From: Serripes groenlandicus
Taxonomy: Eukaryota > Mollusca > Bivalvia > Cardiida > Cardiidae
NCBI GenBank assembly: GCA_031761405.1
Contig: JASEVX010000003.1
Location: 116,278,247 to 116,342,246, forward strand
DNA length: 64,000 nt
Direction of reading: 5' to 3'
A program made the position numbers and the translations under genes. Below are positions 38,407 to 64,000 of the stretch, piece by piece (positions within the stretch are counted from its first letter, which is position 1; each line of letters begins with the position of its first letter). The notes below the pieces were generated by a model, which did not search any database, was not told where the DNA came from, and worked only from the letters and a program-made list of their open reading frames with translations.

Positions 38407-39200
38407 GGTATGTGAAATTGGCACGAAGTTTGATATTCGGTAATCGATATTCAAAACGGATATGAATTTCAAGCTGAAACGAATATAGAGCAAGTACCAG
38501 ATTCGTGAAATACGTTACGATATGAATGTAGATCTAAATGTCGAGCTAGATCGATATTCGTGAAAATGCTGATTGCGTCTTTCTGATCAAGTAGAAACGC
38601 GAATACCGATTTGCATATATATCTGAATATCGAGCCAGGTCTATTCGAGAATAGGTGATTTCATCTTTCTGATCACTTATCATGAATACCGATTTGAATA
38701 TAGATTTGAATATCGAGCCAGGTCGATATTGGGGGAAATGGTGAGTTATTCTATCTGATCATGTAAAAAGACGAATACCGACTTGAATATCGAGCCAGGT
38801 CGATATTGGGGGAAATGGTGAGTTATTCTATCTGATCATGTAAAAAGACGAATACCGACTTGAATATCGATCCAGGTCGATATTGGGGGAAATGGTGAGT
38901 TATTCTATCTGCTCATGTAAAAAGACGAATACCGACTTGAATATCGATCCAGGTCGATATTCGAGAAAATGGTGATTTCGTCTTTCTGATCATGTTTTAG
39001 AGCGAATATAGATCTGAATATCGAGCCAGGTCGATATTCGGGAAAATGGTGATTTCGTCTTTCTGATCAGGTAGGAGCGCGAATAGCACTTTTTAAATAC
39101 AGATCTGAATGTTATCGAGTCAGGTCGAATTTCGGGCAAATGGTGATTTCGTCTTTCTGATCATGTATTATAGCGAATATAAATCTGAATATCGAGCCAT
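38407..39200 (+). repeat. half of the foldback element with 77-bp tandem sub-repeats
   Basis: The left tip (AGGTATGTGAAATTGGCACGAAG) matches the tip of the complete element at 40046. Then GAATATCG-AGCCAGGTCGATATT units recur at 38708, 38785, 38862, 38939 and 39016, exactly 77 bp apart, with more diverged copies on either side. Units carry TTTCTGATCATGTA. No mirrored right end was found here, so it is a half copy. Confidence 0.85.
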
Positions 39201-42576: not shown

Positions 42577-43319
42577 AAATATATTTCTTATACCTGTACA
42601 TTGATATTTCTTCCAAAATGCATATGCATTTTAGTGCATTTTAGTGCATTTTAGTGCATTTGCAGCAGACAATTTATGAAAAAAATATAAATGCATATGT
42701 TTGTAATGGCGAGCAAGTGCATCCATCCACACAGTCTCACACAAGTGGTCACAGGCCGCATGTATGGCAAAAACACTTGAAGTGTAGCCCCCACTATGTT
42801 ATGCCAATATATCTTAAAACGATGTCGAAGTGGAGTAGTGCCCTTAACATCCTAAATCGATACACGCAGCTCATGTACATGTATAATCGTTGCATCTAAC
42901 GATTTGTCTGATTGCATCTTCATAACGGGTTAATATATGGGCAAGAATTCACTATTGGAATTCTTGGTGTCAACACTCTTATTCTGTATGTAGTATCAAT
43001 TAAGTACAGATTTAGAAAAAAAATTAAGACATTTATTTACACATTTATACCTTACACATCCTTTTGTAAAAAAAGAATGAACTTAAAATGTATTGGCACC
43101 GAGAAAAAAAGCCTTAAAACACCATATTTAAGGTTTTAGTGTGACAAAAAGTGTGACATTTTGTACATGCCCTTTAATGTGTGTGTATAACAGCTTTATT
43201 TTACCTCATTTTAGTGTGTAGTTGATTCAAAACTTATATCTAATAATCAAATTTTCCTAAAAAATCAATCCAGTGTATTTGTCTGCAACAATCTTTTTAC
43301 AAAAAAAGAATGAAAATTG

Positions 43320-44935
43320 ACATGTGCGTGTAACATTTGGTGTCAAACATTGTTACACGCGTACATTTATCAAACAAACATAAATTGCAGCACCCAAGGA
43401 CTTACATTTTTGCCTTATAGTATGCTTTCTTTACCCAGTTGATGAAAAAAAAAACACTTTCTTTAAATCTGTGTGTGACTTATGATAGGAAGGCCCAGCA
43501 AAATGTCTTAAATTTTGGTGTCAAATAAATCTTACAAATTTTGATCAAATAATTCAATAATGGAATGCTTCCAGTTGTTTTAATTTAATAACATTTACAA
43601 ATTATTGGATGATTTAAAAATCTGTAATAATATGAATTCATATTATAATGTATGGCAAAAAATAAACTGACTTCAAAATGTGCATGTAACGTTGACAAGG
43701 TGTTACATACACCATACTTTTTTAAAATTTCAATTATTTGCTTCTCTTTAGACAAGCATCTCCAATCACTGGCTATGCTTTTTGGTAGAACATTTATAAA
43801 TAAAAAAAATTAAAAAACAATTTATTTCAATCAGAAACAACAACCTTTGATGTGTGTGTGTAACTGTTTAATTTGACACAAACGTGTCCATGTTACATGC
43901 ATCAAGCATAGACGTATCTTCTATACAGCAGCTGACAGGCTAAACTATTTAATTTAGGAATATTCTACTCCTGACAATTAATCTCCGAACCACAAAACAA
44001 CATATTAAATTTCAAATCTAAATGAATAAAATTACTTTTCAAATTTGTATGTAACATTGACAACAATTCTGTCAATGTTACATGCAACAATAAATATAAC
44101 AGTATAATATTAATAAATTCATAATTTACAGATGTTTGAAGTTATTTGATATATTGCATCACATGCTTTTGCTACAAGTAAAAAAAAATAACAAATAATA
44201 TTGTATATAACAGAAATAAATGAGATTTCTAAATGTATGTAACTATTTCAGTTGACACGAAAGTGTCAATGTTACATACTTCAAATATCTGGTAATCAAA
44301 CATACAAAGTAGTAAATACAACCTGAATCAGAAGACCTGGTCACAACTTCTAACATATAATCCACAAACCAAAGAAGATTTTATATGTTTAATGGATATA
44401 AATGACATTTTAATATATGGCTTTCAACGTGTCAATGTTACATGCATCAAATGGAGCTTTATTTTTATTTTTTAGGATGTTTACTTATAAAATTCATTCA
44501 CAAAAAACACACTGACCCCAACAGCCATGAAATAGGCTAAGACAGAAGCAAGATATATTATTTGAAACAAACATAAGTTTGCACAAACTTTACAAGTGTA
44601 ACATTGACACCAACCATATCTTTTTGCTATTTTTTCTGTTAAACGACAAGACAGTATTTCTTATTCAAACGGTAAATGTTGGAACAAACTCCAACATCAT
44701 TTCACACCATAGCAAAAATTAGATCCTCTTTTAATTATATGAGATATGAACAATTGAAATAATATTGGTGTCAATGTTACATACTTCATATATCAATAAA
44801 TATGACATTTAAAGAAGACAAGATGACATATTTTTAAAAAAGACTCTTGGTTTTAGATGTCTTGCTAGAAGAACTTAGTAGTAAAGCATTTTATAAAATA
44901 AATAAAGGTGATCTATTTTTTGGTTTCAATGTCAC
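43320..44935. repeat. degenerate array of GTAACATTGACA / TGTCAATGTTAC boxes every ~180 bp
   Basis: Paired or single boxes occur at about 43325, 43681, 43855, 44046, 44234, 44420, 44597 and 44765, i.e. steps of roughly 170-190 bp with one double step. Several are palindromic: GTAACATTGACAACAATTCTGTCAATGTTAC (44050-44080) and TTGACACGAAAGTGTCAATGTTAC (44250-44274). The sequence between boxes is AT-rich and poorly conserved. No ORF or known satellite is recognised. Confidence 0.65.
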
Positions 44936-44970
44936 ACTTTGTGTTGCATTAGTGAATTCTTGCCCATATA

Positions 44971-45233
44971 TGAGCCGTTCCACGAGAAAACCAACATTAT
45001 TGACTCTGCGTAATGTATCGACCCAGATCAGCCTGCGCAGTCCGCGCAGGCTAATCCGGGCCGACACATTCCGTCTCAGGGGGATGGAGGTATAGAGTAA
45101 TGATTCCTGAAACAGAAAATCCGCAGGAGGCGAAAAATGTCTGTCCGCAGTAGCCTGCGCGGCATGCTTATGCTGATCCGGGTTGATACTTTACGCGGAG
45201 TCAATAATGTTGGTTTTCTTATGGAACGGCTCA
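44971..45233 (+). mobile_element. TGAGCC-ended MITE, full-length copy 3
   Basis: One of the cleanest copies: TGAGCCGTTCCACGAGAAAACC at the left, GGTTTTCTTATGGAACGGCTCA at the right, TA on both flanks. It contains a GATCAGCCTGCGCAGTCCGCGCAGGCTAATC internal palindrome. Confidence 0.92.
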
Positions 45234-45310
45234 TATATATATTATATATGTATAGCCTATGGCAGGGGTGTGGTAGTAATAAACCGAGGGTCGGATTTCA
45301 ATTCTATAGT

Positions 45311-45573
45311 TGAGCCGTTCCACGAGAAAACCAGCATTATGGACTCTGCGTAATGTATCGATCCAGATCAACCTGCGCAATCCGCGCAGGCTAATCCGGG
45401 CCGACCAATTCGTCTCAAGCGGATAGAGGTATAGAGTAATGTTTCCTGATACAGAAAATCCACAGGAGGCGAAAAGTGTCTTCTGGGATTAGCCTGCGCT
45501 GCAATGCTTAGGCTGATCCGCGTCGATACTTTGCGCTATGTCCACAGTGTTGGTTCTGTCGCGGAGAGCTCAT
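45311..45573 (+). mobile_element. TGAGCC-ended MITE, copy 4
   Basis: Direct neighbour of copy 3 in the same orientation. Left end TGAGCCGTTCCACGAGAAAACC; the right end is degraded to GGAGAGCTCA. It lies about 240 bp upstream of the first visible pirin exon. Confidence 0.9.
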
Positions 45574-45660
45574 TTTATGTCATAAGTTATATCTAGATGA
45601 CAACTGCATGTACGTGGACAGCGACGACTCTGTGGGTCTCTGACTATGTTTATTCTCATT

Positions 45661-45735
45661 AAACCCTCTAGTTTGGATAATCATACGAATCGTCTCACTG
45701 CGGCTATTCTTTTGAGTACCCACAACATAGGCCTT
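45661..45735. repeat. GTGGGTACTC-AATCGTCTCA hairpin family, degenerate copy
   Basis: GAATCGTCTCACTGCGGCTATTCTTTTGAGTACCCACAACATAGG matches the right arm of the near-perfect hairpin at 53987. The left arm is eroded. Confidence 0.7.
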
Positions 45736-45813
45736 GGAGATCAAATAAATACTTTGTAACATAATATCCGTTCCTTATCTAGAACTCTTACTGTTTTTTT
45801 TATTTTCTTGCAG

Positions 45814-46132
45814 GTGTTTGACTTCTAGAACAACGTTTATTTTGCTAAGTGTTTCCTTACTTGAACTCACTTCACAGACAGTGAAAGCAACCGCCAAAGG
45901 ATACTGCAGTGCACCAGGAAAGGACAACTGTTTAGACATATCCTCTAACATCATGTCACGGAATATTCAGAAGGTCGTACCCAGTCGAGAACAAAGCGAG
46001 GGTCAGGGAGCAAAAGTGAGACGGAGCATCGGGGGTCAGATAAGGAACCTCGACCCGTTTTTATTACTCGACGAATTTAAAGTTAAGAAACCGGCTGGAT
46101 TTCCGGATCACCCTCATAGGGGCTTTGAAACG
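45814..46132 (+). CDS. PIR: pirin exon 1 as visible: possible 5' extension plus residues 1-60
   Basis: A polypyrimidine tract and TTGCAG end at 45813, so this exon has a consensus 3' splice site and at least one more exon must lie upstream. The exon is open from its first bases, giving about 46 in-frame codons before ATG 45953, including FILLSVSLLELTSQTVKA, a hydrophobic signal-like stretch. ATG 45953 (MSRNIQKVVPSREQSEG) matches the usual pirin start by position, so it is taken as the start. An upstream ATG in an unseen exon could instead give an N-terminally extended protein. The donor is ACG|GTAAGG at 46132/46133. Confidence 0.85.
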
Positions 46133-49100
46133 GTAAGGGTTTATCGTCAGTTATTGTCTGTGTTAATCATAGGGGCTTTGAAACGGTAAGGGGTTATCGT
46201 CAATTGTTGTCTGTGTTAATCATATGGGCTTTGAAACGGTAAGGGTTTATCGTCAGTTGTTGTCTGTGTTAATCATAGGGGCTTTGAAACGGTAAGGGTT
46301 TATCGTCAGTCGTTGTCTGTGTTAATCATAGGGGCTTTGAAACGGTAAGGGTTTATCGTCAGTTGTTGTCTGTGTTAATCATAGGGGCTTTGAAACGGTA
46401 AGGGTTAATCGTCAGTCGTTGTCTGTGTTAATCATAGGGGCTTTGACACGGTAAGGGGTTATCGTCAGTTGTTGTCTGTGTTAATCATAGGGGATTTGAA
46501 ACGGTAAGGGTTTATCGTCAGTCGTCGTCTGTGTTAATCATAGAGGGTTTGCAACGGTAAGGGTTTATCGTCAGTCGTTGTCTGTGTTAATCATAGGGGC
46601 TTTGAAACGGTAAGTGTTAATCGTCAGTCGTTGTCTGTGTTAATCATAGGGGCTTTGAAACGGTAAGAGTTTATCGTCAGGCGTTATCTGTGTTAATCTT
46701 AGGGGCTTTGAAACGGTAAGGGTTTATCGTCAGGCCTTGTCTGTGTTAATCTTAGGGGCTTTGAAACGGTAAGGGTTTATCGTCAGTCGTTGTCTGTGTT
46801 AATCTTAGGGGCTTTGAAACGGTAAAGGTGTATCGTCAGTCGTTGTTTTGGTTAATTATAGGGGCTTTAAAAACGGTAAGGGTTTATCGTCAGTCGTTGT
46901 CTGTGTTAATCATAGGGGCTTTGAAACGGTAAAGGTGTATCGTCAGCCGTTGTTTTGGTTAATTATATAGCGTCAGTTGTTGTCTGTGTTAATCATAGGG
47001 GCTTTGAAACGGTAAGGGATTATCGTCAGTCGTTGTCTGTGTTAATCGTAGGGGCTTTGAAACGGTAAGGGTTTATCGTCAGTTATTGTCTGTATTAATC
47101 ATAGGGGCTTTGAAACGGTAAGGGTTTATCGTCAGTTATTGTCTGTGTTAATCATCGAGGCTTTGAAACGGTAAAGGTGTTTCGTCAGTCGTTGTTTTGG
47201 TTAATTATAGGGGCTTTAAAAACGGTAAGGGGTTATCGTCAGTTGTTGTCTGTGTTAATCATAGGGGCTTTGAAACGGTAAAGGTGTATCGTCAGTCGTT
47301 GTTTTGGTTAATTATAGGGGCTTTAAAAACGGTAAGGGTTTATCGTCAGTTGTTGTCTGTGTTAATCATAGATGCTTTGAAACGGTAAAGGTTTATCGTC
47401 AGTTGTTGTCTGTGTTAATCATAGGGGCTTTGAAACGGTAAGGGGGTTATCGTCAGTCGTTGTCTGTGTTAATCGTAGGGGCTTTGAAACGGTAAGGGTT
47501 TATCGTCAGTTATTGTCTGTATTAATCATAGGGGCTTTGAAACGGTAAGGGTTTATCGTCAGTTATTGTCTGTGTTAATCATCGAGGCTTTGAAACGGTA
47601 AAGGTGTATCGTCAGTCGTTGTTTTGGTTAATTATAGGGGCTTTAAAAACGGTAAGGGGTTATCGTCAGTTGTTGTCTGTGTTAATCATAGGGGCTTTGA
47701 AACGGTAAGGGGTTATCGTCAGTTGTTGTCTGTGTTAACCATAGGGGCTTTGAAACGGTAAGGGTTTATCATCAGTTGTTGTCTGTGTTAATCATAGATG
47801 CTTTGAAACGGTAAGGGTTTATCGTCAGTTATTGTCTATATTAATCATAGGGGCTTTGAAACGGTAAGGGTTTATCGTCAGTCGTTGTCTGTGTTGATCA
47901 TAGGGGCTTTGAAACGGTAAGGGTTTATCGTCAGTTATTGTCTATATTAATAATAGGGGCTTTGAAACGGTAAGGGTTTCGTCAGTCGTTGTCTGTGTTA
48001 ATCATAGGGGCTTTGAAACGGTAAGGGTTTATCGTCAGTTATTGTCTGTGTTAATCATCGAGGCTTTGAAACGGTAAGGGTGTATCGTCAGTTATTGTCT
48101 ATATTAATAATAGAGGCTTTGAAACGGTAAGGGTTTCGTCAGTCGTTGTCTGTGTTAATCATAGGGGCTTTGAAACGGTAAGGGTTTATCGTCAGTTATT
48201 GTCTGTGTTAATCATCGAGGCTTTGAAACGGTAAGGGTTTGTCGTCAGTTATTGTCTGTATTAATCCTAGGGACTTTGAAACGGTAAAGGTTTATCGTCA
48301 GTCGTTGTCTGTGTTAATCATAGGGGCTTTGAAACGGTAAGGGTTTATAGTCAGTTATTGTCTGTATTAATCATAGGGGCTTTGAAACAGTAAGGGTTTA
48401 TCGTCAGTTATTGTCTGTATTAATTGAACTGTTGTTCGTCATAGTCTCTGTCTCCTAGGCGCTCAGTGTTGCGGAGTTAGCACTACGACTGACTGACTGC
48501 ACGTGTCAAGATAAACGGACCAGAAGTACTGGTAACTTTCCCAGGAAATGCTGAAAACATGTTGAAAGCGGCGTAAAACACCAAACAGTCAATGAATGGT
48601 TACAACAATGTTCACCTCCTCCGGTGGCCATTTTGAGAGGCACATATCTTATATTTAGTGAAAATGGAAGATCAAATATAATATCATTTAACAAGTGCAT
48701 AATACAAAAGCTTTAACATAATATAATATGCGCATTCCGCGAAGGTTAATTTCGGACCGACACATTTCGTCTCAGGGGGATAGAGGTATAAAGTAATGAT
48801 TCCTGAAACAGAAAATCTACAGGTGGCGAAAAGTGTCTGGTCGGGTTAGCCTGCGCAGCATACTTAGGCGATAGACATCTGCGTAATGTATCGACCAGAT
48901 CAGCCTGCGCTGTCCGCGCAGACTGATCCGGCCGACACATTCCGTCTTAGGGGGATAGATGTATACAGTAGTTATTCCTGAAACAGAAAATCCACAGGAG
49001 GCGAAAAGTGTCTGTCCGGGTTAGCCTGCGCGGCATGTTAAGGCTGATCCGGATCGATTCTTTACGCAGAGTCCACATTGGTTTGTTTTCTGGTGGAACG

Positions 49101-52100
49101 ACTCACATTGTAAAACTTCATAAATAAAAAGATTTCAAAAGAGCACCAGCTGGAGTAAAATCTTTCCGTTCTCGACAAGCAGTAAGGCTATCATCGTAGC
49201 CTATACATTGAATCAAAGCGTTTATGTTCCCGATTGTACGTAGTTGATTTCAGATGATTCCATTGATGTATTGTGTACAGGGGCGTAGCTCCCTTTAGGC
49301 AATGTAGGCACGTGCCTACACATTTTTTTCTAAAATGCCCCCAACATGCAGCTGCGGCGATACACATCTGCGTAATGTATCGACCAGATCAGCCTGCACT
49401 CTCCGCGCAGACTGATCCGGCCGACACATTCCGTCTAAGGGGGCATAGATAGAGTAGTGATTCCTGAAACAGAAAATCGACAGGAGGCGAAAAGTGTATA
49501 TCCGGGTACGCCGGTGTGGCATGCTTAGGCTGATCCGGGTCGATACTTTACGCAGAGTCCACAATGTTGATTTTTCTCACGAGACGCCCTACACATTGAT
49601 TATTGCAAAGCTACGCCCCTGGTGTATAACGCCGTTGTCAGCATTAGTTCAGTTATATCTCGGCTGCCAGTTCACTTTAACCGTGTTCTTGTCATTCTCG
49701 AACCAGTGTTCCAACGTTCTTCCCTGGCAACTGACTACCCTTCCTACACATACGTTTTAGTATACTGTTGCTAGTCACAGTGACTTTTATCAATTATTGG
49801 AAATAATGAATGGTCGAGTCGGGATTTGAACTGATGACCCCTTGATTAAAAGTGCTCTTTGTGACCGACTCGACACAGATGTATTTAATGCAGACTTCTT
49901 TGAAAATGTCATATCGTGTAAACTTTTAAAAACTGCTTTGTACTTTAGGTTACATACATGTTGGAAGGACAATTTCGACATGAAGATTTCTGTGGACATA
50001 AAGGTGTTATTAACCCCGGAGATTTACAGGTAAGAGAAAACGGACTACTGTCAGGGTCGTAGCTCCCTTTAGGCACTCTAGGCACGTGCTTACACATTTT
50101 TTCTAAAAATGCCCCCAAAATGCAGCTGCGGCGATACACATCTGCGTAATGTATCGACCAGATCAGCCTGCGCTGTCCGCGCAGACTGATCTGGCCGACA
50201 CATTCCGTCTAAAGGGGAGGGGGGGGGGTAGAAAGAGTAGTGATTCCTGAAACAGAAAATCCACAGAAGGCGAAAAGTGTATATCCGGGTACGCCTGTGT
50301 GGCATGCTTAGGCTTATCCGGGTCGATACTTTACGCAGAGTCCACACTGTTAATTTTCTCACGAGACGGCCTAAACATTGATTATTGCCAAGCTACGCCC
50401 CTGACTTTCCTACTTTGAGTCTTTGATGTGATTGATGCTAGTTCCCGTAAAGTTTCACCAGGAAGGAATTATAGTTCTCCCTACATCTATCTGTCAGTCT
50501 GTCTGTCTGTCTGTCTGTCAAAACAACGGAATTATGCGGTGACTACAAACGAATTATACCGAGGTCCGGGAAACCTATAGATAGTAATGTCCTAGTAGCA
50601 AAAGCCATAGTGTACCCTTCCTCACTGACAGACGCAATGTGGCACAATTGCAGCAGCCAATGTTTGAAGAATTATAGTTTTCACACATATCAAGATCGTC
50701 GGAATTTATAATGAACTCTCTTTTCGTGCTCATGTTATTATAATTTGTATGGTGTTTTTTAAGATCGTCCGAATTTATAATGAACTCTCTTTTCGTGCTC
50801 ATGTTATTATAATTTGTATTGTGTTTTTTAAGATCGTCCGAATTTATAATGAACTCTCTTTTCGTGCTCATGTTATTATAATTTGTATTGTGTTTTTTAA
50901 GATCGTCGGAATTTATAATGAACTCTCTTTTCGTGCTCATGTTATTATAATTTGTATTGTGTTTTTTAAGATCGTCCGAATTTATAATGAACTCTCTTTT
51001 CGTGCTCATGTTATTATAATTTGTATTGTGTTTTTTAAGATCGTCCGAATTTATAATGAACTCTCTTTTCGTGCTCATGTTATTATAATTTGTATGGTGT
51101 TTTTTAAGATCGTCCGAATTTATAATGAACTCTCTTTTCGTGCTCATGTTATTATAATTTGTATGGTGTTTTTTAAGATCGTCCGAATTTATAATGAACT
51201 CTCTTTTCGTGCTCATGTTATTATAATTTGTATTGTGTTTTTTAAGATCGTCCGAATTTATAATGAACTCTCTTTTCGTGCTCATGTTATTATAATTTGT
51301 ATTGTGTTTTTTAAGATCGTCCGAATTTATAATGAACTCTCTTTTCGTGCTCATGTTATTATAATTTGTATGGTGTTTTTTAAGATCGTCCGAATTTATA
51401 ATGAACTCTCTTTTCGTGCTCATGTTATTATAATTTGTATTGTGTTTTTTAAGATCGTCCGAATTTATAATGAACTCTCTTTTCGTGCTCATGTTATTAT
51501 AATTTGTATGGTGTTTTTTAAGATCGTCCGAATTTATAATGAACTCTCTTTTCGTGCTCATGTTATTATAATTTGTATTGTGTTTTTTAAGATCGTCCGA
51601 ATTTATAATGAACTCTCTTTTCGTGCTCATGTTATTATAATTTGTATTGTGTTTTTTAAGATCGTCCGAATTTATAATGAACTCTCTTTTCGTGCTCATG
51701 TTATTATAATTTGTATTGTGTTTTTTAAGATCGTCCGAATTTATAATGAACTCTCTTTTCGTGCTCATGTTATTATAATTTGTATGGTGTTTTTTAAGAT
51801 CGTCGGAATTTATAATGAACTCTCTTTTCGTGCTCATGTTATTATAATTTGTATGGTGTTTTTTAAGATCGTCCGAATTTATAATGAACTCTCTTTTCGT
51901 GCTCATGTTATTATAATTTGTATGGTGTTTTTTAAGATCGTCCGAATTTATAATGAACTCTCTTTTCGTGCTCATGTTATTATAATTTGTATTGTGTTTT
52001 TTAAGATCGTCCGAATTTATAATGAACTCTCTTTTCGTGCTCATGTTATTATAATTTGTATGGTGTTTTTTAAGATCGTCGGAATTTATAATGAACTCTC

Positions 52101-55100
52101 TTTTCGTGCTCATGTTATTATAATTTGTATTGTGTTTTTTAAGATCGTCGGAATTTATAATGAACTCTCTTTTCGTGCTCATGTTATTATAATTTGTATG
52201 GTGTTTTTAAAAAGAAATTTTCGTTAGCTACATATTTCTTTTACATTCGAAAGTGCTGAATTTTTGCTAATTGTATTACAAATCTAGGCAAATGAAAAGA
52301 ATGATGATGTCCTACATATGCCTTTTTATTACATTCAAAGTTTAAAGTCTAATCGCAAATAGTTTTACAGCTTTCCCTCAATCATTTTTTTTACATTTTC
52401 TTTACGAGACAAATCTGCAAGTCGTCTTTGAAAGCATCTACGCAAAATGTTGAAAAAGTTCAATAAATGACCCTTAAAGTATAGAATAGAGGTGAACACA
52501 TTATGGCAAAAGGAAAAGTTACTCAACAGGCGTTAACTCTCCTTTTGTCGTAATGTTTTCAAATGTAGTCTGCTGCAGATGAGTTTAAAATGCGTCAAAA
52601 TGCATCTGCATGTTTTGGACAGGGTTTTAACCCTTTCCCACCTGTTGAAGCTTTTTGACGCATCTGCAGCAGACGACTTTTGCAAACATTGTGACAAAAG
52701 CAGAAATTGCTCAAAACGATTAATTTCTACTTTTCTCACAAAGTTTTCAACTTTTTTCAATTATTATACCTAAAATAACAGAGATTTTCCATGTTATATT
52801 TGAGAAGACATTTTTAAAGTCGTCTGCTGCAGATGTGTTGTATATTGGAAAGGGTTTTAAATGGGTTTCATATTTTATTGAACCCAGTGGATGACCGCGG
52901 GAAAAGGGATCCTCCATTGTGAAATGCCAGAGGGAGAGGCGCTGGCACACGGTCTGCAACTCTGGGTCAACCTTGCCAAGAAGGACAAAATGGTGAAACC
53001 AGCCTACCAGGAGTTGTTGGACAAAGACATCCCAAAAGTCACGAAAGATGGCGTGACAGTGAAAGTGATAGCCGGGGAATCCTTGGGAACAAAGGTGAGT
53101 AGTATTTAAGCCGTCTCGCGAGGAAACCATCAGTGTGGACTCTGCGTAAAGTATCGACCCGGATCAGCCTGTGCACGCCGCGCAGGTATTTCCGGTTATA
53201 CACTTTTCGTCTCCTGTTGATTGTCTGTTTCAGGAATCATTACTCTATACTTCTATACCCTTGAGACGGAATGTGTCGGCCCGGATCAGTCTGCGCGGAC
53301 TGCGCAGGCTGATCTGGGTCGATACATTACGCAGAGGCCATACTGTTGGTTTTCTCGCGGGAAGGCTCATTTGTTATCTCTTTCCAACATACAACACAAA
53401 TTTGCAGTAGACTTCTTTCGAAAACATAAAGGGAAATGTATGTAAAACATCTTTAAATAAAATAAAAAAATGAATTAATTTAAAGCTGTTGTGGCAAAAT
53501 AAGAAATTTTCCATTAAGAGCAATTACACCTCTTGAGACAATGTTTAGAAAAGTCGTTTGCTACAGATGCGTCTCAATGCGTCTACAGATGGGAAATGAA
53601 TTATAAAAGGTTTATATCTGTACAGGTGCCTTTGGTTATTGTAGATAATAAACACATTGTTGCACATGCTGAAAGTGCTCATTACAGGCAATTTCTCCTT
53701 TTGCCACAATGTTTTCAAAAGTCATCCGGTACAGATGCATTAGAATGTGTCTGTATGTTGTTGTTGTTTTTTATTTTTCAATATATAACTTATTAGCCAC
53801 GTGCATTGGTATGGGTAGGTCTAGGCCATCCTCCCTCAAGTGTCTGTATGTTGAAGAGGAACACTCCCCCTCAATGTCTGCTTTCTGGAGAGATAACCAA
53901 GAGTGGAGAAGAACACCAAAGACTGACATTACATATCTCTAGATAGGGGGCGTTTGGCATGTTCTAAACTCCTTATTTGACCTTATAACCCTATGTTGTG
54001 GGTACTCGAAAGAATCGTCTCATTGAGACGATTCTTTTGAGTACCCACAACATAGGGTTTGGTTGAATTGTTCAAACCCATTACTTATGGATCAAGATGC
54101 TAGCGTACTACCTGAGAACCAATGTGTTGAAGATATGTTAAACATTTCTAATATAGCGTGTAGCTTGTACTATATTTCGTATTCCGTACTGTGGGTACTC
54201 AACATAATCGCCTCATTGTGACGATTTTGTTTAGTACCCACACACTAGGGTGTGATTGGGAAATAAGGAGATATTAAAGGATAGATTCAGCTGGCTCTAA
54301 AACTCTTTGCTCAGTATGTATGCTCAAGAATCTGATGGGTCAAAAGCAAATTAATTGAACAACCAGAAGAAGTCTTATTTGTATCATAGAGTTCATGTTT
54401 GACCACAGAGAACGTATTCAGAAATATATAGTTTGCAGGGCTTGTTATCCCTTTCCCACATACAACAAATCTGCAGCAGACGACTTTGAAAACATACCCG
54501 GAATAAATTGGAAACTCCCTTTAAATAAAAGTACAATAATTGAATCGAGTTGAAAACATGTTGATAAAAGGAGAAATTGCTCGTTTTGAGCAATTTCTTC
54601 TTTTGTCAACATGTTTTCAAAGAGCTGTCAGCTGCAGAGGCGTCAGAAAGCGTCTATATTAGGGAAAGGGTTAACTCTTCCTTTTCTATATTTTTGATTT
54701 ATGTATATCGTTATTGTTAAACGCCGCTGAAGAAGGCTGAAAGGCCGATAGTACTACAGCATAATAATTGAGCAGGCTCCGCGAGAAAACCAACATTATT
54801 GCCTCTGCGTAATGTATAAACCAAGATCAGCCTGCGAAGTCGGCGCAGACTGATCCGGGCCGACACATTCCGTCTCAGGGGGATAGAGATATAGAGTAAT
54901 GATTCCTGAAACAGAAAATCCACAGGAGGAGAAAAGTGTCTATCCGGTTAAGCCTGTGCGGCATGCTTAAGCTGATCCGAGTCTATACTTTACGCAGAGT
55001 CAACAATGTTGGTTTTCTCGCGGGGCGGCTCCTAAGATTAATCAGCGGTTTTTTTTATTATAACTGGCATTTAGAAACTTCATTATACATATTCATATTT

Positions 55101-58100
55101 TCAGTCGCCTGTGTACACAAGGACACCAACTATGTACCTAGATTTCAGAATGGACAAAGGGTCCACCTTGAACCAAGAGGTTCCAGATGGGTGGAATGGA
55201 TTTGCTTATGTCTTGTCAGGAACCGCTCTGTTTGGTATGTACAGTGAACTCTCGATATCTTGAACATGCGAAAAGCCGAATATATCATTCTACTCGAACC
55301 ATTTCTTGGAACAGATCTGTCTTTTAAAAACAGCGTAGCAGCTGTTCTCTTTATATGATTGTTTCACTGACTTGCTTTTCATAATAAACAATCAAAATTT
55401 ATTATGAATTTCGAAGATAACAATACATAGTTTTATTGTGCACAAATCGATGAATCACTCGAACACGTCGATAACTCGAAGTAATTTATTGATCAATTTC
55501 GACTTGTTGTTTTCTCGAGTTAACTGTATAATAATTGATATGAGCCGTCCAGCGAGACAACCAACATCGTGGACTCTGCGTAAAGTATCGACCCGGATCA
55601 GCCTAAGAATGCCGCACAGGCTTACCCAGATAGACACTTTTCGCCTCCTGTGGATTTTCTGTTTCAGGAATCATTACTCTATACCTCTATCCCCCTGAGA
55701 CGGAATGTGTCGGCCGGATCAGTCTGCGCGGATACATTACGCAGAGGCCATAATGTTGGTTTTCTCGCAGGACGGCTCATATATGAAATTACCACTTTAT
55801 CATATATTGCAGCAGATGACGTTTGGAAACATTCTTTTAAAAGTTGAAAATGCCCATGTTACAACCGTTTTACTCCTTTTTTCGTACTTGTCCAATTTAA
55901 AAAAAAAGCTAACAAATATGTTCCTCTTACCCAAAGCCATCTTCATTGATCAATAAGCATTGGCTCTTGGGAGCAGGCCTTAAGTGAAACTTTTACAGCT
56001 CACCCCGTTCGCAAATACCGGTCCTATGGGGTGGGGCTATTTCAATGAAGCCTTAAACCCGCAACTGATGCTTACAATTATTTTCCTTTGTTTTCAAAGT
56101 CACCTGCTGCAGGCTTCCTTCTATATGAGTGAGGTTTCCTATGCAGAGGACTATATAAGAGGGAGTCAACAGGTCTTTACCCCACACTATTTTTCTTATT
56201 ACCCAACTAAATCCTATGTTGTGGGTAATCAAAAGAATCGTCTCACTGAGACGATTTGTTTAAGTACCCACACAATAGTGTTTTAATGTCAAATAAGGAT
56301 TTCAGAACCTGAAAAAAATGCCACTTATCAAGAGAAGCGATCAGTTTGATACTAGTAAGTATAGAAATCGTTTCACTTTTACGAACTCCATTGTTGTGGT
56401 TGTAGGTCCAGATAACGACGCCACTCAGGGTCCGGCCCACAATACACTAGTTCTTGGACCGGGAAACTCATTGAAAGTTAAAAATAACGTAAGTTTTAAA
56501 TTCTTTATTCATTCCTGTTACTACTGAATTATATGAATACCAGATGTTGAGAACGGTGTTGGGAAGATTCTTATAGCCTGCAGAGATCCAAATAAGGGGC
56601 GTTTTGCAACTTCCGAAATCCTTATTAGTCCTCAGAAACCTATGTTGTGGTGCCAAAAACATAAGTTTGATTTAGTGCTAACATATATATCTTTGAAAAC
56701 ACGTTGGGAAAAAAGGAAGCACTCTATTTATTTAATACGGTAAAAGACATCCTGGCAAATGGAGAAAATGCTCATCATGATAAGTATTGCCAGTGTTTTC
56801 AAACATCTACTGTTGCAAGTTCATCAAAACACATCTGCATGTGGGAAAGGATTAAACAATATAATGAAAACAGAACGGAACAGACTTTATATTTTCGAAA
56901 AGCCTTTTATTTCGCTATCGGGGTAATTGTCAATAAATCTAAATCCTAAAAATACTTAAAATTCCGTCACTGATCTATTTCTATCACACATTTATATGGC
57001 ATGCATTGCCTATGCAACAGCTTGTTTGTTGTTTTAGGCCGCTTTTAACAATTGTTCAGTTATATCACTGTGTTTCCTGCCTAACTTACCAGTACTACTG
57101 GTCCATTTATCCTGACACCAGCCAGTCGGTCGTGATGCTAATCCCGCTACCCTGAGCACCAAGGAGGGTAGCCATTACTTCCATTTTTACAGTCTTTGGT
57201 AGGACCCGGACGGGGATCGAACCTGTGACCTCCTGCACCCGAGGCAGGCGCTCTACCACCACACCGGACCTTTGCAACAGAGCACATAAAAAAACATTAC
57301 TCAAAAAGGATTATTTCCCGTTGTCCGACAAAGTTTTAGAATTCTATCAAATTGTCCAGATATAACCATATTCCCCAAGAGGTTAACAAATCTGAATACT
57401 TTAAAAATACTATGTCTGGAGAACTAGTGTAACCAGATTTGGTAGTTAAGAGAATTCTGAGTTGTGGGTGTATTTCGATTGCACTAAAGTATCGAACATT
57501 CGAGCGAGTGCTACACGAATCTACCAATCATATTACAGCTTTTAATTAGCACTTGTGTGAGTGCTTAGTATGTAAGGATGATCTAAATATAGCCCTGGTG
57601 ATTGGTTAACATTATCCCCCATGTATACGCATGACCATAATATTGAAAGAATTGCTCATAATGGTTCGTTTCTCCTTTTGACTCAATGGTTTCAACTCTA
57701 TTCAATAATTATACTTTCATATATAGATATTTTCCATCTTTAAACGTTTAAACTGTTTTCAAAGTATATTGGTAAATGTTAAATCTACATTGAATCTGTT
57801 TTATTCCAGAGAGATGAAGTATGCCATTTTGTTCTCATAGCTGGTAAACCTATAAATGAACCAATAGTTCAATATGGTAAGTTCGTCATTTTGTTTAAAT
57901 AGCTGCTTAGCCTTTAGTTAGATATAGTAAGCATTGCGTACTGTTCAAATAGCTGGTCAGTTGAAAGTTTGGGATGGTTGTTTTTTTGGGGGTTTTTTCT
58001 AGTTGTCATTAGATTTGGTTAGTCTGTCATTTTGTTTAAGTAGCTGGTCAATCTTTAGTCCAATACTGTTATTCTACCAGTTTGTTCAAATAGCTTATAT

Positions 58101-61100
58101 CATTCCGTTCAAGAAGCTAGTCAGCGTACGGTTCAATATGGTAAGTGAAGTAGCTAGTCAGCGTACGGTTCAATATGGTAAGTGAAGTAGCTAGTCAGCG
58201 TACGGTTCAATATGGTAAGTGAAGTAGCTAGTCAGCGTACGGTTCAATATGGTTAGTAAAGTAGCTAGTCAGCCTATCGTTCAACATGGTTAGTAAAGTA
58301 GCTAGTCAGCCTATCGTTCAACATGGTAAGTGAAGTAGCTAGTCAGCCTATCGTTCAATATGGTTAGTGAAGTAACTAGTCAGCCTATCGTTCAATATGG
58401 TTAGTGAAGTAGCTAGTCAGCATATCGTTCAATATGGTTAGTGAAGTAGCTAGTCAGCCTATCGTTCAACATGGTAAGTGAAGTAGCTAGTCAGCCTATT
58501 GTTCAACATGATTAGTGAAGTAGCTAGTCAGCCTATCGTTCAACATGGTTAGTAAAGTAGCTAGTCAGCCTATCGTTCAATATGGTTAGTGAAGTAGCTA
58601 GTCAGCCTATCGTTCAATATGGTAAGTGAAGTAGCTAGTCAGCCTATCGTTCAACATGATTAGTGAAGTAGCTAGTCAGCCTATCGTTCAATATGGTTAG
58701 TGAAGTAGTTAGTCAGCCTATTGTCCAATATAGTTAGTGAAGAAGCTAGTCAGCCTATCGTTCAATATGGTTAGTGAAGTAGCTAGTCAGCCTCTCGTTC
58801 AACATGGTTAGTAAAGTAGCTAGTCAGCGTACGGTTCAATATTGTTAGTGAAGTAGCTAGTCAGCCTATCGATCAATATGGTTAGTGAAGTAGCTAGTCA
58901 GCCTATCGTTCAATATGGTAAGTGAAGTAGCTAGTCAGCCTATCGTTCAACATGATTAGTGAAGTAGCTAGTCAGCCTATCGTTCAACATGGTTAGTAAA
59001 GTAGCTAGTCAGCCTATCGTTCAATATGGTTAGTGAAGTAGCTAGCCAGCCTATCGTTCAACATGGTTAGTAAAGTAGCTAGTCAGCCTATCGTTCAACA
59101 TGGTTAGTGAAGTAGCTAGTCAGCCTATCGTTCAATATGGTTAGTAAAGTAGCTAGTCGGCCTATCGTTCAATATGGTTAGTGAAGTAGTTAGTCAGCCT
59201 ATTGTCCAATATGATTAGTGAAGTAGCTAGTCAGCCTATCGTTCAATATGTTTAGTGAAGTAGCTAGTCAGCCTCTCGTTCAACATGGTTAGTAAAGTAG
59301 CTAGTCAGCGTACGGTTCAATATTGTTAGTAAAGTAGCTAGTCAGCCTATCTTTCAATATGGTTAGTGAAGAAGCTAGTCAGCCTATCGTTCAATATGGT
59401 AAGTGAAGTTGCTAGTCAGCCTATCGTTCAACATGATTAGTGAAGTAGCTAGTCAGCCTATCGTTCAATATGGTTAGTGAAGTAGCTAGCCAGCTTATCG
59501 TTCAACATGGTTAGTAAAGTAGCTAGTCAGCCTATCGTTCAATATGGTTAGTGAAGTAGCTAGTCAGCCTATCGTTCAATATGGTTAGTGAAGTAGCTAG
59601 TCGGCCTATCGTTCAATATGGTTAGTGAAGTAGTTAGTCAGCCTATTGTCCAATATGGTTAGTGAAGTAGCTAGTCAGCCTATCGTTCAATATGGTTAGT
59701 GAAGTAGCTAGTCGGCCTCTCGTTCAACATGGTTAGTAAAGTAGCTAGTCAGCGTACGGTTCAATATTGTTATTGAAGTAGCTAGTCAGCCTATCATTCA
59801 ATATCGTTAGTGAAGTAGCTAGTCAGCCTGTCGTTCAATATGGTAAGTGAAGTAGCTAGTCAGCCTATCGTTCAACATGATTAGTGAAGTAGCTAGTCAT
59901 CCTATCGTTCAACATGGTTAGTAAAGTAGCTAGTCAGCCTATCGTTCAATATGGTTAGTGAAGTAGCTAGCCAGCCTATCGTTCAATATGGTAAGTGAAG
60001 TAGCTAGTCAGCCTATCGGTCAACATGATTAGTGAAGTAGCTAGTCAGCCTATCGTTCAACATGGTTAGTAAAGTAGCTAGTCAGCCTATCGTTCAATAT
60101 GGTTAGTGAAGTAGCTAGCCAGCCTATCGTTCAACATGGTTAGTAAAGTAGCTAGTCAGCCTATCGTTCAACATGGTTAGTGAAGTAGCTAGTCAGCCTA
60201 TCGTTCAATATGGTTAGTAAAGTAGCTAGTCGGCCTATCGTTCAATATGGTTAGTGAAGTAGTTAGTCAGCCTATTGTCCAATATGATTAGTGAAGTAGC
60301 TAGTCAGCCTATCGTTCAATATGTTTAGTGAAGTAGCTAGTCAGCCTCTCGTTCAACATGGTTAGTAAAGTAGCTAGTCAGCGTACGGTTCAATATTGTT
60401 AGTGAAGTAGCTAGTCAGCCTATCGTTCAATATGGTTAGTGAAGTAGCTAGTCAGCCTATCGTTCAATATGGTAAGTGAAGTAGCTAGTCAGCCTATCGT
60501 TCAACATGATTAGTGAAGTAGCTAGTCAGCCTATCGTTCAATATGGTTAGTGAAGTAGCTAGCCAGCTTATCGTTCAACATGGTTAGTAAAGTAGCTAGT
60601 CAGCCTTTCGTTCAACATGGTTAGTGAAGTAGCTAGTCAGCCTATCGTTCAATATGGTTAGTGAAGTAGCTAGTCGGCCTATCGTTCAATATGGTTAGTG
60701 AAGTAGTTAGTCAGCCTATTGTCCAATATGGTTAGTGAAGTAGCTAGTCAGCCTATCGTTCAATATGGTTAGTGAAGTAGCTAGTCGGCCTCTCGTTCAA
60801 CATGGTTAGTAAAGTAGCTAGTCAGCGTACGGTTCAATATTGTTATTGAAGTAGCTAGTCAGCCTATCATTCAATATCGTTAGTGAAGTAGCTAGTCAGC
60901 CTATCGTTCAATATGGTAAGTGAAGTAGCTAGTCAGCCTATCGTTCAACATGATTAGTGAAGTAGCTAGTCAGCCTATCGTTCAACATGGTTAGTAAAGT
61001 AGCTAGTCAGCCTATCGTTCAATATGGTTAGTGAAGTAGCTAGCCAGCCTATCGTTCAACATGGTTAGTAAAGTAGCTAGTCAGCCTATCGTTCAACATG

Positions 61101-63218: not shown

Positions 63219-63340
63219 ACATTGGGTAAAGTACTTTGGCCATCTAAAGTGAACTACGAAACATTCATGGACTAGCGTTTATGGTTATTGATGAAGTGGT
63301 TTTTTTTTGTCAATATCTGCAACTGTTTGAGGACTTTGAA

Positions 63341-63346
63341 AATAAA
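63341..63346 (+). terminator. pirin poly(A) signal AATAAA
   Basis: Canonical AATAAA 123 bases after the stop codon, preceded by a T-run (63299-63308). It is the first such hexamer in the 3' region, so a short 3' UTR is likely. Confidence 0.75.
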
Positions 63347-63593
63347 ACTGTACTTACTAAAGTTGATTTTAGCTGACATATCATTATGCAAAATTTGTTT
63401 TGAAGTAAACCATTCCCTCGTGCAGACGTTTTTTTTACGCATTTTCAGCAGACGACTTCTGAAAACATTTCCCCGTGCTTCAGAAGTGCTTCACCTACGC
63501 TCTCAGCAGTGTATGATCCTGCGTATGAGTTATGTGTTGTAGTGTTTTATCTGGTATGACTTATCTCAGTATCTCACTAAAGACTAACACATA

Positions 63594-63852
63594 TGAGCCG
63601 TCCAGTGAGAAAACCAACATTATGGACTATGCGTAATGTATAGACCCAGATCAGCATGCGTAGTCCGCGCAGACTGATCCTACCCGACACATTCCGTCTC
63701 AGGGGGATAGAGGTATCATAATTCTTGAAACAGAAAAACCACAGGAGGCGAAAAGTGTCTATCCGGGTAAGCCTGCGCGGCGTGCTTAGGCTGATCCGGG
63801 TCGATACTTTACGCAGACTCCACAATGTTGTTTTTTCTCTTGGGCCGGCTAA
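63594..63852 (+). mobile_element. TGAGCC-ended MITE, copy downstream of pirin
   Basis: TGAGCCGTCCAGTGAGAAAACC at the left, TTTTTTCTCTTGGGCCGGCTAA at the right, standard interior. ORFs on both strands here are translations of the MITE. Confidence 0.9.
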
Positions 63853-63885
63853 TATCACTAAAGATAAACAAATAGTGTTTATCTT

Positions 63886-64000
63886 CAAGCTTATCCATTT
63901 CCCTCATACAGACGCCTATTGACGCATCTACAGCAGACGACTTTCGGACATTGTGACAAAAGTGGAAATAATTTCTCCTTTGGACACAAATCTTTCCACT
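63886..64000. mobile_element. CTGCAGCAGACGAC palindromic element, cut by window end
   Basis: TATCCATTTCCCTCATACAGACGCC..CATCTACAGCAGACGACTTTCGGACATTGTGACAAAAG is the left arm. The right arm lies beyond position 64000. Confidence 0.78.

Follow-up and report, generated by a model that had tools for sequence, protein, structure and literature searches.

Two intronic minisatellites derived from exon/5' splice-site junctions in a bivalve pirin gene

We analysed a 64,000-nt stretch of Serripes groenlandicus DNA (the window, to whose positions all coordinates refer) that falls within a single contig of 150.8 Mb in a 1.76-Gb assembly. The window contains a pirin gene (45953-63218, + strand) with an intact coding model of seven coding exons, GT-AG introns and a product of 286 aa; this model represents the coding part only, without untranslated exons or promoter. 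Exon 1 occupies positions 45953-46132, exon 2 49949-50029, exon 3 52888-53094, exon 4 55105-55234, exon 5 56406-56488, exon 6 57810-57876 and exon 7, with the stop codon, 63106-63218. The product scores for both the Pirin and Pirin_C domains, aligns over residues 3-283 with solved pirins, and has its nearest named proteins in the clams Mactra antiquata (82%) and Mercenaria mercenaria (79%). It also contains HPHRGFET, a motif with a role in metal binding. An Rfam search found nothing in 45001-64000, and a tRNA-Pro-like match obtained with bacterial settings on the - strand of intron 5 (57202-57270) may be the head of a SINE.

A minisatellite detected by Tandem Repeats Finder (TRF) starts inside exon 1 and extends into intron 1 (array 1, 46114-48424, + strand). 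Of its 43 units, each about 53 bp long and carrying a donor, the first is the real exon/intron junction. The 53-bp unit opens with TCATAGGGGCTTTGAAACG, the 19 nt at the end of exon 1 (46114-46132), and continues with the first 34 nt of intron 1. The real donor of exon 1, ACG/GTAAGG (GTAAGG at 46133-46138), and its 42 copies span 46133-48390, and the acceptor of exon 2 would be the partner for every one of them. GTAA is kept in all 43 units and CGGTAA in 42, while 34 units have a length of exactly 53 bp. Unit 1 is identical over 53 of 53 bases to units 19, 27, 36 and 39, which makes the true exon end look like part of a homogenising family; given five letter-for-letter identical 53-bp units among 43, chance is no serious account of the array. 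Overall, 37 of the 43 units are distinct, with diverged variants among them, and the exon-derived and intron-derived columns vary about alike (3.3 versus 2.9 variants per column).

The initial annotation had proposed that this array repeats the exon 1/5' splice-site junction serially and that it derives from the exon rather than the reverse. This proposal is supported: the first unit is contiguous with coding exon 1 in the assembly sequence, RGFET is common to 117 of the 120 homologues listed, which makes the exon the origin of the array, and at the sensitivity of the search the array has no match at any other place in the genome. Two details need adjustment. The figure of about 43 further units fits the number of donor-bearing units, of which only 42 lie beyond the real donor, and the exon part of the unit is exon-derived as described, with a length of 19 nt instead of 15. 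The idea that each unit could be read as a 13-nt micro-exon is not sustained, because the acceptor-like ATAG comes from the exon itself, and introns of a single unit would measure 40 nt. Pyrimidine content does not speak against the idea: in front of the AG, which 33 units retain, it is 0.56-0.69, similar to the 0.50-0.69 of the six real acceptors of the gene.

A second junction-derived array, missing from the initial annotation, occupies intron 6 (array 2, 57877-62320) with 113 donor-like copies in units of 37 and 50 bp. The source lies in the 3' part of exon 6, whose end and donor read CCAATAGTTCAATATG/GTAAGT. The real donor at 57877 and the first degenerate copies, with donor-like sites at 57927 and 58018, take up 57877-58110 (+ strand); they are followed by about 104 copies of the 37-bp unit found by TRF (58111-61970, + strand), many ending in GTTAGT and not GTAAGT, and then by about seven 50-bp units (61954-62312, + strand), which are closest to the exon-6 source. 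Apart from a 12-nt gap, the 50-bp unit aligns with exon 6, its donor and the beginning of the intron. Exon 6 plus donor scores 47 against the 50-bp units (62070-62320), where 500 shuffles reach at most 26 and 226 other windows from the gene region at most 28. In a site search allowing at most 4 mismatches, 114 donor-like sites were found, the real one included; GT is kept at 98 of them, GTTAGT is present at 79 and GTAAGT at 15. On this evidence, the intron-6 array consists of serial, by now decayed copies of the end of exon 6 together with its donor. Because it is more decayed than array 1, it is probably older, and the two arrays would go back to separate events.

Donor strength was scored with a 5' splice-site matrix. 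On this scale the real exon-1 donor scores 9.12 and 33 of the 42 array-1 copies score equal or higher, in line with the earlier description of good decoy donors when this is understood as sequence potential; seven copies read GTAAAG. Intron sequence outside the arrays (8,152 bases) contains 479 GTs, none of which attains the score of the real exon-1 donor. In array 2, 13 of the 113 copies score at least as high as the real exon-6 donor. The earlier arithmetic, according to which a downstream array-1 donor adds 53n bases and read-through meets a stop at 46187-46189, is correct on both counts. Translation from donor 2 yields 106 aa before a stop and from donors 3-43 78 aa, compared to the full product of 286 aa, and use of any of the 113 array-2 copies leads to a stop after 257 aa. 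Thus, an early stop would result from all 42 copied donors of array 1 and all 113 of array 2.

We favour, with a probability of about 0.7, an explanation in which the arrays originated by junction duplication, are tolerated within introns, leave the first donor in main use with a small leak, and are mostly silent. More specifically, two separate tandem duplications in one gene would have caught exon/5' splice-site junctions, at exon 1 and exon 6, and would have grown into minisatellites. A duplication wholly within an exon usually breaks the frame, whereas one that spans the donor leaves the upstream exon and its donor intact. Because the first exon copy and the first donor stay intact and the rest becomes intron, such junction duplications could survive and grow, at the cost of a splice choice among dozens of look-alike sites; the intact coding model and the scoring Pirin domains argue that the arrays are tolerated. 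The spliceosome would mainly use the first donor, as this donor would be reached first in transcription and have its use set by the intact exon; a minor fraction would leak to the next one or two copies. Leaked transcripts would enter nonsense-mediated decay, and the arrays would vary in length and be largely silent ballast, at the price of a slight reduction in pirin output. Our main doubt concerns the choice of donor: in classic duplicated-donor tests the donor nearest to the acceptor is reportedly often favoured, and on that pattern splicing should go to the last unit. If leakage is costly, copies close to the exon might be expected to be weaker; this was not seen in array 1 (Mann-Whitney p=0.39), and in array 2 strong donors lie nearer the exon (p=0.035). 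RNA folding as a means to hide donors was not decisive, with unpaired fractions of 0.17-0.44 for 15 of the 43 array-1 donors (the real one included) versus 0.18-0.59 for the other five real donors.

Donor-bearing minisatellites are already known. One of them, in the human gene IFI6 (also G1P3 or 6-16), was reportedly described by Turri in 1995; its unit is short and its additions are in frame. Three IFI6 mRNAs arise through the use of two downstream repeat units (PMC4526556); IFI6, like pirin, has a minisatellite with several splice donors. Pirin differs in its 53-bp unit and in that every copied donor would lead to an early stop. In human ABCA7, a VNTR in intron 18 is made of 25-bp units that begin with the donor of exon 18, and transcripts that keep one of the units have been found (PMC5954066). 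In the same paper, two frameshift isoforms account for 14 and 2%, the 2% being the unit-retaining one if the order is as listed; with longer arrays, expression is lower and exon 19 is skipped more often, and the level of the one-unit-retaining isoform is unchanged with VNTR length, so a longer array need not raise the leak. ABCA7 resembles the pirin arrays in that its units begin at a real exon donor and its unit-retaining transcript shifts the frame, and is unlike them in that the unit starts at the GT, so no exon bases are described, and in having one array, of about 12 to 427 units in people. In pirin, both arrays start at a real exon donor (46133 and 57877), and a donor-like site is present in 43 of the 43 array-1 units, with GT kept at 98 of the 114 array-2 sites. 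By analogy, these human genes suggest that the first copy would be mostly used in pirin as well; the expectation from both precedents is that most transcripts use donor 1 and a few use donors 2-3, that leaked RNA is decayed, and that array length has perhaps a mild effect.

A functional alternative is that the arrays regulate splice choice, the copied donors competing with the first so that copy number sets the productive share of pirin mRNA. The copies scoring at least as high as the real donor (33 of 42 and 13 of 113), the stops that follow from all of the copies, and the link between ABCA7 VNTR length and lower expression (PMC5954066) would be consistent with such a role, which we nevertheless consider unlikely: the donor 9-mer is not specially conserved, with 10 variants in the 43 array-1 units where 6 of the 53 circular windows have as few or fewer (minimum 3), and 79 of the 114 array-2 sites have drifted to the weaker GTTAGT. 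Selection on the donors was itself rejected, the variant count of the 9-mer being nothing special among the 53 circular windows. The lowest probability of all, a few percent at most in our judgement, goes to the possibility that the array arose through misassembly, or belongs to a dispersed satellite lying next to the exon by chance. In a coarse first look that skipped very common words and scored one candidate region for each array, no copies of array 1 or array 2 were found elsewhere in the 1.76-Gb assembly; the matches are confined to this locus, most array-1 units (37 of 43) are distinct, some being diverged variants, and the contig is long (150.8 Mb). At the level of sequence, we regard the unit contents, their exon source, the retention of donor motifs and the matching of both arrays to this locus alone as established.

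Two further accounts concern the way in which the arrays, or the introns, came about. With arrays at two of the six donors of the pirin gene, 5' splice junctions could be favoured places of minisatellite seeding in this genome, through breaks or slippage linked to transcription or splicing; decoy arrays would then recur and tune genes like pirin by copy number. Under random placement, the probability that at least two of the three arrays lie across a donor is about 0.001, a figure computed after the fact. We compared 36 exons of other genes, namely the 30 PF00118 matches with loci among 60 listed and 6 chosen DEAD matches among 53 listed. TRF arrays overlapped the exon frame in none of the 36, in a small test to which array 2 would likewise be invisible. 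When the open frame is aligned locally with its flanks, pirin exon 1 scores 141 and exon 6 35, and since two of the 36 controls score higher than exon 6 (56 and 40), its value is not outstanding. The score of 56 falls in intron sequence upstream of the match, that of 40 belongs to the acceptor side of a chaperonin locus (L037) where the exon portion taken by itself falls short of significance (27 of 1000 shuffles reach its score), and one further control scores 34. Tandem copies of the donors of exons 2-5 were not found, their best matches in the gene sequence (21-32) being located elsewhere. In that search, because of dispersed repeats, 25 of 60 random windows, chosen to leave out those overlapping the three arrays or exon ends, score at least 39, so a high score alone proves little. 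Such a general seeding tendency, and likewise the recurrent tuning it would imply, appears doubtful. Still less probable is that the introns themselves arose when coding sequence was tandemly duplicated (intron gain of the Rogers type), with the arrays as traces. This account would explain the exon sequence within an intron, and it finds an echo in a distant pirin paralogue 9 Mb away (L021-L023, G000:C963:125540479-125547210) that reads RGFETVTYM and the counterpart of exon 6 uninterrupted and is thus without intron 1 at that position. The paralogue, however, seems to share few or no introns with the gene, and absence there does not polarise the event. Furthermore, exons 2 and 7 use acceptors located past the arrays (49948 and 63105), and the sequence around these acceptors has best matches of only 25 and 24 in the gene versus 114 and 63 for the two donors. 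Known intron gains in potato RdRp and in a 24-bp case from fission yeast (PMC4974935) and in Drosophila (PMC2891723) likewise involve tandem-duplicated exon sequence with splice motifs; in pirin, by contrast, the copying affected a donor that was already present, and the acceptor in use is no copy.

Compared to the literature examined, the new elements are the coding exon sequence in the units (19 of 53 nt in array 1 and most of the array-2 unit), the presence of two independent arrays in one gene, and the invertebrate host; no closer precedent than IFI6 and ABCA7 was found in the literature searched, mostly outside subscription papers. Two human loci show that donor-bearing repeats can alter splicing. 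The pirin gene offers an extreme natural test, with 42 copied donors, the majority matching the real one in strength, and 113 decayed ones in the same intact gene, and would let the choice of the spliceosome among identical sites, and array growth at exon ends, be measured directly. The locus is also a warning to gene annotators.

Several other repeats were observed. Positions 1-21600 of the window consist of tandem units of 2,528 bp that are rich in TGTA-type microsatellites and, in most of the 500-bp windows compared, identical to one another; their register breaks once at about 9.5 kb. Intron 2 contains a 69-bp array of 22 copies with 98% matches (50692-52208) and a 519-codon open frame on the + strand; neither this array nor that at L056 resembles an exon by eye. 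A 77-bp array at 38700-39080 has a unit with the strong donor-like ATGGTGAGT, and no adjoining exon was identified; a TGTCAATGTTACATG-like motif recurs many times over 2 kb at 42970-44950. A dispersed element with a CGCGCAG..CTGATCCGG core is present in several introns and upstream (48850-49080, 49360-49560 and 54800-55030). At L037:1360-1520, weak tandem copies of an intron tail reach 12 nt into the chaperonin exon at its acceptor. Finally, the chaperonin exon matches at G000:C1:30278963-30293616 and C1185:49345117-49356784 have matching scores and similar spacing, and represent either a duplication or a haplotype copy.
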